From contig CAINGU010000083.1 in NCBI GenBank assembly GCA_903848645.1, positions 80,023 through 144,022 on the forward strand: a stretch of 64,000 nt of DNA, in the 5' to 3' direction. The notes under the pieces were generated by a model. That model saw only the letters and a list, made by a program, of their open reading frames with translations, did no database searches and had not been told where the DNA came from. Made by a program: the position numbers and the translations under genes. Numbering within the stretch: position 1 is the stretch's first letter; every line of letters begins with the position of its first letter. Positions 42,331 to 46,521 of the stretch are shown piece after piece. Origin of the DNA: an uncultured cyanobacterium (GTDB taxonomy: Bacteria > Cyanobacteriota > Cyanobacteriia > Cyanobacteriales > Nostocaceae).

Positions 42331-42374
42331 GGTGTTTTGGGATTGACAACTACAAAATATCCCCATAAATGTAG

Positions 42375-42395
42375 GGGTTTAGCAGTGCTAAACCC
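42375..42395. repeat. perfect palindrome after chlD
   Basis: GGGTTTAGCA and TGCTAAACCC are perfect 10-base arms around one G. It is preceded by TGTAG as the other GGG-type palindromes are. It may help end the chlD transcript, though no T run follows. Confidence 0.7.
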
Positions 42396-42492
42396 TTACC
42401 CACTGGCCACACCACTAAGAAATTAGATCATTTATTTTGTAGATAATTAATTTATGACTCATACTAAAATAGTAACAATGGAGTTTAAACCC

Positions 42493-42810
42493 ATGACACA
42501 AACAACCCCAAAAACAGCAAGAAGAAGAGGAAGGATTTTCCCTGAACTGACTTTATCACCAGAAGAATTAGCTAGACGGAAAGCAGAAGATGAACAATTT
42601 TATCAACGTTGTTGGACAATTTTTCAAAAATTGCTTCCTGAGTTTATAAAAGATCATTATGGTTGGTATATTGCCATAGAACCCAATAGTGGTGATTATT
42701 TTATTGATCAAAATAAGGAAGTTGCTAGTAAGAAAGCAAGGGAGAAACATCCTAATGTGATACATTTTTTATTTGGCATCAATGAAACTGGAGTAACTGG
42801 GAGAATATGA
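42493..42810 (+). CDS. small protein found upstream of aspartic-protease-like genes
   Basis: From the ATG at 42493 the protein has 105 residues; GGAG nine bases upstream favours this start over ATGs at 42454 and 42478. The sequence FIKDHYGWYIAIEPNSGDYFIDQ and HFLFGINETGVTGRI is a pattern I remember from small cyanobacterial proteins encoded just before retroviral-type aspartic protease genes. Its stop overlaps the ATG of such a gene (ATGA), but that gene is truncated here. The function is unknown; the pairing suggests a small mobile or toxin-antitoxin-like module. Confidence 0.6.
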   Translation: MTQTTPKTARRRGRIFPELTLSPEELARRKAEDEQFYQRCWTIFQKLLPEFIKDHYGWYIAIEPNSGDYFIDQNKEVASKKAREKHPNVIHFLFGINETGVTGRI

Positions 42811-42954
42811 TAGAAGGTAATATTGGATAATCAAGAGTATGAAATTCCCGTTTATGTTGGAGATAAATTAACGGAAATTTTATTGGGTTCAGAGTGGTTG
42901 GAATTTTTGCCTTTGGTGGTGAATTTTCCAGATGGTATTTTGACATTGGGATGA
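42807..42954 (+). pseudogene. remnant of a retroviral-type aspartic protease gene
   Basis: The ATG at 42807 overlaps the stop of the previous gene and reads MIEGNIG before a stop. In a shifted frame the sequence from about 42822 reads EIPVYVGDKLTEILLGSEWL, then VVNFPDGILTLG and a TGA at 42952-42954, which resembles the end of cyanobacterial clan AA proteases. The central part with the D-T-G active site is missing, so this is a deletion remnant. Confidence 0.6.
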
Positions 42955-42994
42955 TTTTTTTGATAAAATTAAAATATTCGTAAACAGAAAAATA

Positions 42995-43261
42995 ATGAAT
43001 ATTCAAATTCAACCAGAATTAGAGCAAATTATTGAATCACAAATTGCTACAGGTAGATATGCAAATCCTGAAGAAGTAATTAGTCAAGCGTTGAAATTGC
43101 TTTTGCAGTGGGAAAAAGGTTATCAGAATTGGGTTTCAGAAACACGGGAAAAGGTTGATGTTTCTATTGAACAATTAGATAGAGGGGAAGGTATTGATGG
43201 GGAAGTTGTGATTGAAAAATTGCGGGATAAGTTGCGTAAAGCCAGAGAGATACAAGGATGA
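42995..43261 (+). CDS. ParD-type (ribbon-helix-helix) antitoxin
   Basis: An 88-residue antitoxin of the ParD/CopG type: a short N-terminal strand (MNIQIQPELEQIIESQI), the helices around GRYANPEEVISQALKLLLQWE and a helical tail (GVVIEKLRDKLRKAREIQ-like) that would hold a ParE toxin. Its stop codon overlaps the ATG of a ParE-type gene (ATGA), the usual coupling. That toxin is cut after 24 codons, so the antitoxin no longer has a working partner here. Confidence 0.85.
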   Translation: MNIQIQPELEQIIESQIATGRYANPEEVISQALKLLLQWEKGYQNWVSETREKVDVSIEQLDRGEGIDGEVVIEKLRDKLRKAREIQG

Positions 43262-43332
43262 AACAGCATATTATTTCTCCAGAAGCAAGTCGGGATTTAT
43301 CAGAAATTATTGATTATTTTGTTTTCCAATAA
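43258..43332 (+). pseudogene. truncated ParE-type toxin
   Basis: MKQHIISPEASRDLSEIIDY followed by FVFQ and a stop. The first 20 residues are a typical ParE/RelE start; the remaining 70 or so are missing. The sequence after the break, read on the minus strand, gives LQVTWEELKKIIGKQ, which looks like the end of an unrelated gene, so foreign DNA has replaced the toxin body. Confidence 0.75.
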
Positions 43333-43401
43333 TCTTCTTTAATTCTTCCCAAGTAACCTGTAAATTGAAAATTTAAGTCTCAGTAATGACAACAAAATTT
43401 T

Positions 43402-44703: not shown

Positions 44704-44717
44704 AAAAAATTTCCTAT

Positions 44718-45664
44718 TTATAGCAAGTCTTGGTTTCTCTTTAATGCGTTTTTTAAATACTCAATTGCTTTTTCCAGATTTTCTATTTTTTGCCTGTTTT
44801 GTTCCTTATTCAGAATTAAATCATCTTTTTGATCTTCAAGAGAGCGAATAGCTTGTCTTTGCTCCTTAATAATTTCTTGAGCTAAACGAATATCTTTTTG
44901 AATGAGGACAATTTCTTTCATTACAACTTCTAACTTAGCTGCTTGTGTTAAAGCAGCATCTGGCGATTGAGCAAACAAAGCACCAACACCAACACCCGCA
45001 CCTGCACCAAGAATCGCACCACCACCAACAATGACTGCAAAACCACCCGCCATTCCCAAACCACCTGCTGCTATTGCACCTCCTCCAAGAGCGGCTAAAA
45101 CAGCTGATACCGCTGCTGCACCAGATAACCCAGGCGCTAGTATAGGTGCTAATAAACCTGCGATTACTGGCGTGAAAAATGCTGCTGTGATGGCTAAAGC
45201 AACTGCACCCAAGACACCGATTAGCCAGGGATTTAAACCACCTTTAATTCCTTGAATCGCCTCATTATAGTTCGACTTAAAACGTGTAACAACATCTGAA
45301 TCTAAATCTAGGCTTCTGGCAAAAAATCTTAATTTATGTGTAAGTTTGTATTCGTCAGATATTTTTAGATTTTTATATTTGTCATCATTTGTGTTACCAA
45401 GGTTATAATATGGCTTAAAAATAACTACCTCTAAGAACATTATATATAGAGTTAATTTATTTCCCACATCTGTCTTAATCGCTGTAATTAATTGTTTGAG
45501 TAATTCAAAATCTGTGATCAAATTAGAGGAAGAATGACTATGATTTTCTTGATTAATTTGTCCTTGTAAAAAAAGTTCAGTTGATTCTTTCCACTGATAT
45601 AACCATTGCCTTGATAGCTAAACATGATTCTTGTTTGTTCCAGAGTTAAACCAAATTCTTTCAT
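44718..45664 (-). CDS. glycine-zipper membrane protein with coiled coil; interrupted by a frameshift
   Basis: The intact part (from 45521, a TTG codon, to 44718) has 267 residues: a helical start, a membrane region of about 100 residues rich in Gly/Ala (GAAAVSAVLAALGGGAIAAGG, then more GxGxG) and a long coiled coil (EVVMKEIVLIQKDIRLAQEI to LEKAIEYLKNALKR). Upstream, an ATG at 45664 with AAGGA before it opens MKEFGLTLEQTRIMFSYQGN, which joins this frame only if a run of seven A (45568-45574) had one more base. The true gene is therefore about 315 residues with a homopolymer frameshift. The profile recalls pore-forming or membrane-tethered effectors. Confidence 0.65.
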
Positions 45665-45766
45665 TGTCTTTTTCCTTAAAGTTGTACTACTGAATCTTAA
45701 TTACAACAAATTCTAATTTTATTAAGCACATTTGCTTAAATTTGTTTATTTAATTTGGAAGTTTTA

Positions 45767-46072
45767 TTACATTGAGACTAATTTATACAAATTATCCTCA
45801 CTATGCAAACCCGCCTTTAACACATCTAAACCCGTCTGTGACGTGAGAGTATAACTAATTGCAGAACCCTTTTTAGTAACAGTAACAGCCCCCTGTGCTT
45901 CCAAATCCTCTAAAATACCCTGATAGTCAGCCTTATTCTTACCTTTGGAATCTATCCGCTTCGTCAATTTACCCTTAGCTACCTTCTGCTGACTTCCTCC
46001 CAAATCCCACAACGCAAGCAGCAAGCGAGTTTTAGCGTAACCCGTCTGTAAATCATTGATTTTTGGACTCAT
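45767..46072 (-). CDS. winged-helix-like small protein, first gene of the island module
   Basis: A 101-residue soluble protein. LLLALWDLGGSQQKVAKGKL, a helix around YQGILEDLEAQG and the hairpin AVTVTKKGSAISYTLTSQTG followed by a last helix fit a winged helix-turn-helix. It is upstream of the membrane protein gene on the same strand, 102 bases away, and could regulate it or act with it. A fragment of a second homologue lies at about 46328-46381. Confidence 0.6.
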   Translation of the reverse strand: MSPKINDLQTGYAKTRLLLALWDLGGSQQKVAKGKLTKRIDSKGKNKADYQGILEDLEAQGAVTVTKKGSAISYTLTSQTGLDVLKAGLHSEDNLYKLVSM

Positions 46073-46327
46073 GATGATGTGTGATAAATAACTAAAATAA
46101 TTATAATCGTGATTGTAATTTTTATTTTCTCAAAGCCAAATATCATTTATTTTCTCAATATTCTTGACAAATATCTCAATTTATCGGCATAAAAAGCAAC
46201 GGAAAATTTACGTACCTTATACCACTACAGAAAAAAGATACATTTACAGAAGTTCTTATATATGTAGACTACACTCTTAATTCCTCTCCGTGCCTCTGCG
46301 TGGGAAAAATGGTTTCCGTTGATAAAA

Positions 46328-46381
46328 TATTGGATTAGAAAATTGATTCGCTCCTAAATCCCACAACCCCAGCAACAAGCG
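46328..46381 (-). pseudogene. fragment of a second winged-helix-like gene
   Basis: The minus strand reads TRLLLGLWDLGANQFS, close to TRLLLALWDLGGSQQK in the intact gene at 45767-46072. Neither a start nor the rest of the gene remains. It abuts the chlD tail copy, so the break point of the island lies here. Confidence 0.7.
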
Positions 46382-46386
46382 TGTTT

Positions 46387-46521
46387 AAATTTGTATTAAC
46401 TGGCTTTGTCAAATAATTATCAAAAACAGCCGGAGGTAAATATTATCACCTACCCAAAGCGACGGATAAAGCGATCGCCGCTATGACTAGAGGTGCTATA
46501 GCAGATATGAAATCAAAGTAA
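46387..46521 (+). pseudogene. second copy of the chlD 3' end
   Basis: These 135 bases align without gaps to 42196-42330, the end of chlD, with about 22 differences by eye. They encode LSKTAGGKYYHLPKATDKAI and AAMTRGAIADMKSK then stop, preceded by an in-frame TAA. Most differences in the conserved part are silent, so the copy diverged as coding sequence, in another lineage or long ago. It marks the right end of the accessory island that begins after chlD. Confidence 0.93.

Follow-up and report, generated by a model that had tools for sequence, protein, structure and literature searches.

The window, a 64-kb stretch of contig CAINGU010000083.1 from an uncultured Nostocaceae genome (G000 in our numbering of genomes), carries an intact magnesium chelatase subunit D gene, chlD, on the forward strand at 40309..42330, where a 673-aa open reading frame (ORF) with VWA and Mg_chelatase domains is 80-98% identical to the chlD of relatives. 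The final 135 bases of this gene (42196-42330, + strand; hereafter the first tail, i.e., the working 3′ end) recur without gaps and in direct orientation at 46387-46521 (+ strand; the second tail), starting ~4 kb downstream of the chlD end. The two copies agree in 113 of 135 bases, so that the roughly 22 differences of the original prediction, made from the sequence by inspection, turned out to be exactly 22; a repeat search extended the match by one base (42195/46386) at 84% identity. We rule out chance similarity, as no other ungapped stretch of 135 bases on this strand of the window exceeded 60/135 matches, compared with 113 for the second tail. No third chlD tail was detected in the same genome (5.4 Mb, 119 contigs), these two matches being the only ones. 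At the codon level, the tails differ at 20 positions, 16 of them silent and 4 non-silent, one of the latter being an in-frame stop in the second tail, in agreement with the earlier description of mostly silent differences and a single stop.

Accessory genes and remnants occupy the space between the tails, as had been proposed. Following chlD is a 118-aa ORF (42454..42810, + strand) without a Pfam or PADLOC match that is present after chlD in several relatives too, and whose aspartyl-protease-like partner gene, which follows it in those relatives, is broken here by stops in its frame (about 42807-42954). Next comes a ParD-like antitoxin ORF (42995..43261, + strand; Pfam PF03693, 5.8e-05); behind it, a 24-codon ORF (43258-43332) resembles, by eye and in translation, the start of a ParE toxin that was cut short. 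The reverse strand then encodes a homologue of the Bunzi-type defence protein BnzB (43402..44703; PADLOC BnzB, 4.1e-62) and the damaged second gene of the Bunzi-type pair (44718..45521), a 267-aa ORF with a 61-base gap relative to its 335-aa homologue in genome G004. This G004 homologue gave a weak PDC-M09A match (5e-10, PADLOC) and no BnzA model. With regard to Bunzi membership, the BnzB homologue is thus present in the window while an intact partner protein is not, and from their sequence the cargo genes resemble genes of virus defence. A 101-aa ORF of unassigned function follows (45767..46072, − strand; no Pfam match), relatives of which occur in 14 of the 16 genomes of the genus set (own genome included), mostly at other loci. 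The right-end segment at 46066..46200 (+ strand) has counterparts, 88-90% identical over 135 bp, in the G001 and G003 islands, and in both a chlD tail comes immediately after the counterpart. Finally, the 43 bp at 46344..46386 (+ strand; a repeat with 81% identity) are a second remnant of the 101-aa ORF, derived from its 5′ region, and touch the second tail, indicating that the island has more than one layer. HIP1 octamers had also been invoked: each tail does carry one (42304 and 46471, at differing places within the tail) and none lies between, yet with 25 octamers in the window, the probability of finding none in 4.06 kb is ~0.2 and three longer HIP1-free gaps exist in the window, so their absence is uninformative and was dropped as a sign of foreign DNA.

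Second tails were not restricted to the window. Seven of the 16 genus genomes carry one 1.2-4.4 kb after chlD, always in direct orientation and reaching the stop codon, and the chlD islands measure 1.2-4.4 kb. A second tail also lies beside chlD in G019, a member of a neighbouring genus, and Sphaerospermopsis kisseleviana NIES-73 (G195; locus L016) retains a 22-bp remnant of one; these copies, too, are direct and lie at the stop codon or adjacent to it. The copies vary in length, from 136 bp in the window to 200 bp in G004, 226 bp in G009, 101 bp in G006, 100 bp in G012, 127 bp in both G001 and G003, and about 70 bp in G019. In a search of the family, which returned a chlD match in 214 of 217 genomes, the ChlD C-terminus was matched twice in 17 genomes from other genera; only in G019 was the second match a tail beside chlD, and the remaining candidates were discarded. 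G007 is at best a doubtful further island: a gene is duplicated in tandem there, and a 30-bp match (80%) weakly resembles a tail. Among the relatives examined, no second tail occurred without intervening DNA, and none was seen in relatives lacking the island; the finding that the original prediction had named as telling against it thus did not appear.

If an insertion had copied the last part of chlD locally and the copy had then decayed neutrally, ~23% of the changed codons between the tails would be expected to be silent. The ratio of silent to other changed codons was 16:4 in the window, 17:13 in G004, 16:9 in G009, 9:1 in G006, 6:0 in G012, 7:0 in G001, 7:2 in G019 and 1:2 in G003. Taking the eight genomes together, 79 of 110 changed codons were silent, with an excess over the neutral share of ~0.23 in seven of the eight pairs, and even when this share was raised to 0.35 (roughly the silent share after long selection on one copy alone), P was ~4e-15 with all genomes summed and 5e-5 in the window by itself, although P values and counts over genomes take no account of shared ancestry. 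Moreover, the second tail of the window is nearer to other genomes (94/99 bases to the second tail of G006, 93/100 to the chlD of both G019 and G010) than to the first tail of the same genome (87/100), so the two tails do not group together as a late local duplication. Because the differences are mostly silent, the tails appear to have diverged as working chlD ends in separate lineages, and therefore a foreign chlD end was presumably brought in. It is thus likely, as far as sequence can tell, that the 3′ end of chlD is occupied by foreign DNA with a chlD end of its own, and the ratio of 16 silent to 4 other codons, not expected from a late local duplication, sustains the proposal that the incoming DNA carried that end. 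To reconcile local copying with these data, an insertion (by long target duplication or template switch) would have to be followed by an exchange that swapped the intact chlD for a diverged allele. The tails of G003, which are 97.6% alike and have the hairpin region in common as far as 61 bases beyond the stop, speak for such a course, as do tails at other genes (see below); given the silent excess in seven pairs and the affinities of the second tail in the window, we consider it unlikely for chlD.

Which of the two tails is native can be read from the DNA that follows the second. In G001, this flank equals the flank after chlD of the island-free G008 (95.6% over 1 kb), in G003 that of the island-free G014 (93.4% over 1.26 kb), and in L016 that of the island-free L017 (87.6% over 1457 bp). 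Since the flanks match the chlD flanks of island-free relatives, the second tail is the displaced native end in these three. In the window, a dispersed repeat comes after the second tail, and then napA, a gene that lies on another contig or far from chlD in the other 15 genus genomes (~24 kb off in G006); a comparison of downstream regions, which had been suggested as a check, hence settled the native tail in the three relatives, while for the window it returned a flank that is found elsewhere. The gene downstream of the second tail differs from genome to genome. By analogy with the relatives, the best reading of the window takes 46387-46521 as the displaced native end and 42196-42330 as the imported one. 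The dispersed repeat itself (46576-46684, ~110 bp) resembles a miniature inverted-repeat transposable element with imperfect inverted ends and has at least 39 matches in its own genome (38 of 216 first-look candidates scored). Further out, a Uma2 gene upstream of chlD (39364-40038) was matched in 12 of the 30 related loci listed, and neighbouring genes with similar starts at 48964-52921 (~70% over 294 nt) are, by eye, apparently amidase-type tandem paralogues.

A defence-like gene follows chlD in 12 of the 21 chlD loci with listed ORFs, and the type of system differs between strains. Bunzi-type genes were found in the window and, by 96% identity, in G004; PDC-S28 in G009 and G010; OLD-like genes with HEC-01A as the best model in G003 and G019; GmrSD with a HEPN partner in G006 (scanned) and, by homology, in G012, G020, G051 and L016; and a reverse transcriptase fitting the RT_UG19 model in G011. 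The cargo of G001 consists of an RHH/PIN pair only. Islands may agree on the left and differ beyond: the first kilobase is 98-100% identical between G001 and G003 while the cargo beyond it differs, and G004 and G009 have the left 800 bp in common before Bunzi-type genes in the one and PDC-S28 genes in the other. Thus, different cargo occupies the same chlD site across strains, and no mobility gene was found among the ORFs scanned. This includes recombinases, none of which was seen among the scanned island ORFs at chlD (small ORFs of <150 aa were scanned only in part), consistent with the earlier remark that no integrase remains. Nor did phage, viral or plasmid records hold a chlD tail that could represent a free attP; the sole plasmid match, 36 bp past the chlD end, belongs to the hairpin region and is not a chlD tail.

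These observations bear on the possibility of a site-specific integrative element, comparable to e14 at icd, in which an attP that carried the chlD end was recombined with chlD by an integrase that has since been lost or that acts from another place. The architecture is indeed the same as that of icd/e14 in Escherichia coli K-12 (165-bp second tail, 92.7% identity), with the first tail imported and the second native. In addition, the HEPN partner of GmrSD had 25 matches in 24 of the 217 family genomes, and chlD is the gene immediately before each of the five nearest (64-100% identity, from four genera), which speaks for such an element; of the other 20 (44-63%), 15 lie elsewhere, judged by chlD positions, and 5 are unplaced. 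However, the scanned ORFs of the islands lack a recombinase, the islands span just 1.2-4.4 kb, tail lengths range from 22 to 226 bp, phage, plasmid and viral records are devoid of chlD tails, and the same layout at other genes, described below, would require other integrases. We therefore give an e14-like element little credence.

Several lines of evidence point to movement between genomes. On a tree of 27 chlD genes, built without their last 300 bases, the presence of a second tail changes six times, at least five of these changes falling on well-supported branches, and no bootstrap tree unites the genomes with a second tail into one group. The islands of G006 and G012 are 98.7% identical, yet their chlD genes agree to only ~91% and the sequences beyond the second tail are unrelated. 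The second tail of G012 has the letters of G006 at −100, −94, −91 and −43 (three of them at the left end) and native letters at −67, −61, −58, −40, −34 and −19, a pattern which suggests a crossover inside this tail. Together, the shared island on diverged genes and the mosaic tail fit, without proving, an exchange by homologous recombination in the flanks. Changes in identity were placed at +63, +165 and +237 in three pairs. A single ancestral insertion before the split of the genus, inherited vertically and lost many times, could explain why G001 and G003 have the same right junction, and several changes on a tree can equal one gain plus several losses. Yet the gap between 98.7% and ~91% in G006 and G012 already disfavours this scenario, as does the variation of cargo and tail length between strains, rendering it highly improbable. 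With respect to DNA uptake, the genome of the window has a ComEC gene, natural competence is reported for heterocystous cyanobacteria (PMC9429965), and in pneumococcus, transformation can yield duplications when donor DNA pairs with two chromosome copies (PMC3784515).

We favour, with a probability of roughly 0.6, an integrase-free entry and spread, in which the island arrived with a foreign chlD end via chlD homology and the native end was displaced downstream. DNA of a related strain would pair with chlD on the left by ordinary RecA-type homology, and its other end would join the recipient somewhere in the terminal 22-226 bp of chlD, by an illegitimate event on the first occasion. With chlD sequence on both sides, the island could from then on enter any empty chlD, or exit cleanly, by homologous exchange alone, independently of the downstream gene and without requiring an integrase, and its cargo could later be exchanged inside the island. 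In the window, the cell's own chlD end was probably pushed 4 kb downstream, where it persists as a decaying relic, while the foreign end would now complete the gene, likely keeping the essential chlD whole.

A number of observations weigh against this integrase-free reading. Besides the shared ancestry of the genomes, which makes the pooled counts non-independent, the tails of G003 lack a silent excess and fit local copying, and so do the coaBC tails described below. Four of the 12 chlD loci with defence cargo (G010, G011, G020, G051) have no second tail in the DNA examined. A sharp crossover point was looked for in G001 and none could be placed, and an island-free relative sharing the right flank of the window was not found among the other 15 genus genomes. 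Furthermore, G005 carries the Bunzi cassette 1.5 Mb from chlD (L285:13934-18331; 96% identity over 2.3 kb) without gene-end repeats. Because it sits there tail-less, cargo can move by another route, and its position would also argue against an element that uses chlD alone. In conjunction with the lack of a recombinase among the scanned ORFs and the variable tails, the G005 cassette leaves unsupported the likeness to integrase-driven elements at tRNA genes that the original prediction had drawn; the other half of that prediction, foreign DNA with its own chlD end at the chlD 3′ end, is supported.

The same layout recurs at other gene ends. The window holds one more gene whose 3′ end is repeated (18437..19648, − strand). 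This gene, which we take to be coaBC, is followed 320 bp downstream by a second tail (18001..18116, − strand; 94.8% over the last 114 bp of the gene). Between the two lies a 95-aa ORF (18139..18426, + strand; no Pfam match) that looks antitoxin-like by eye, presumably of the Phd/YefM type. This second tail was present in 5 of 12 loci compared (window, G004, G006, G009, G010). Because only 1 of 19 changed codons was silent in the four pairs tested, the coaBC tails look locally copied, in support of the duplication scenario considered above.

A further case is a permease-ATPase operon (L244-L259; Pfam ABC2_membrane and ABC_tran), presumably wzm-wzt. While in G000 and G011 the permease gene runs directly into the start of the ATPase gene, 11 of the 16 genomes have an insert after the permease gene and then a second permease tail, which in 10 of the 11 is 50-88 bp long and ends exactly at the ATPase start. 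The inserts comprise Uma2 genes (the commonest), a HicA toxin with a partner ORF (G008) and a gene with weak likeness to DUF6036 (G014). G008 has two wzm tails in succession, the newest of which equals the gene end in 74 of 75 bases, again as expected from local duplication. Among 11 wzm tail pairs counted, a silent excess (P < 0.01) was seen in G009, G010, G014 and the second tail of G008, the others showing no excess or yielding no P value.

To gauge how common such repeats are, 3′ ends were searched in 901 genes of 90 sequence sets, which gave 14 matches: eight at chlD and six elsewhere, namely coaBC, a 617-aa tandem paralogue (G007), a repetitive 189-aa ORF (G013) and three matches at 66-68% identity (L024, L033, L056). 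A survey of 1,289 cyanobacterial genes (40 in the window, 483 in G006, 521 in G118 and 245 on two own contigs) returned seven short 3′ tails (two in the window, two in G006, three in G118 and none on the two own contigs), full-length tandem paralogues and seven partial matches in one G006 tandem gene family being excluded. Comparably short 5′ counterparts were absent from the 1,289 genes, the five partial 5′ matches (162-297 nt, 68-80%) being read as tandem paralogues. As a positive control, 148 genes in 200 kb of E. coli K-12 gave icd/e14 as the sole 3′ match, plus one partial 5′ match of 176 nt. That 3′ ends alone were seen may reflect selection for a whole gene and, at wzm, for the start of the next gene as well. 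The repeats in G006 include that of a transporter gene with an alkaline-phosphatase gene before the second tail (L177:13391-18500), and those of G118, a Nostoc-type genome (L212, L213), belong to genes near 3,937,068, 3,946,431 and 3,967,749. Tentatively, the several core-gene ends involved in Nostocaceae (chlD, wzm and others) might point to a broader class of integrase-free cassettes with defence or toxin-antitoxin genes, for which the 3′ end of the core gene in front of them serves as a portable homology arm, so that RecA alone would suffice for entry, swapping and clean exit irrespective of the downstream DNA; we regard this generalization as possible but doubtful.

Parts of this picture have precedents. 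In E. coli K-12, e14 likewise completes a gene with an imported end and displaces the native end to its far side (icdC, 165 bp); unlike the chlD islands, which are short, show no recombinase and vary in tail length and cargo, e14 is a 15-kb element with intE and xisE. The minimal mobile elements of Neisseria (Saunders and Snyder) are reportedly cassettes of whole genes exchanged between chromosomal genes without mobility genes of their own. They, too, reportedly place different cargo at one site with no mobility gene; conserved genes are said to flank them on both sides, whereas at chlD the homology on the right consists of a partial duplicate of the gene on the left. For the immunity-gene arrays of Vibrio type VI secretion systems, homology-facilitated illegitimate recombination was proposed (PMC5361080). 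That report describes homology at one end, an illegitimate join at the other and old 3′ parts left downstream, as proposed for chlD, but there the old immunity genes stay useful, whereas what is left behind at chlD is a short, dead core-gene end. Hotspots of defence genes next to core genes are reported from E. coli and Pseudomonas aeruginosa (PMC10121019, PMC10250203) and resemble the chlD locus in having differing defence systems by strain in one core-gene neighbourhood; at chlD, by contrast, the cargo is bracketed by copies of the core gene's end. In the open-access literature, we found no recognisable report that describes chlD as a landing site or cyanobacterial defence cassettes enclosed by gene-end repeats. 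Hence, the e14 architecture and the exchange of minimal mobile elements are known, while an e14 layout in which no integrase is seen and the right arm is self-supplied would seem to be new.

These findings bear on the way in which defence islands that lack visible mobility genes move. The count of silent versus other changes between tails offers a simple readout that separates imported ends, as at chlD, from locally copied ones, as at coaBC, and tail relics could flag landing sites in other genomes. For the island itself, a copy of a core-gene end would provide two-sided homology and independence from whichever gene happens to be its right neighbour.

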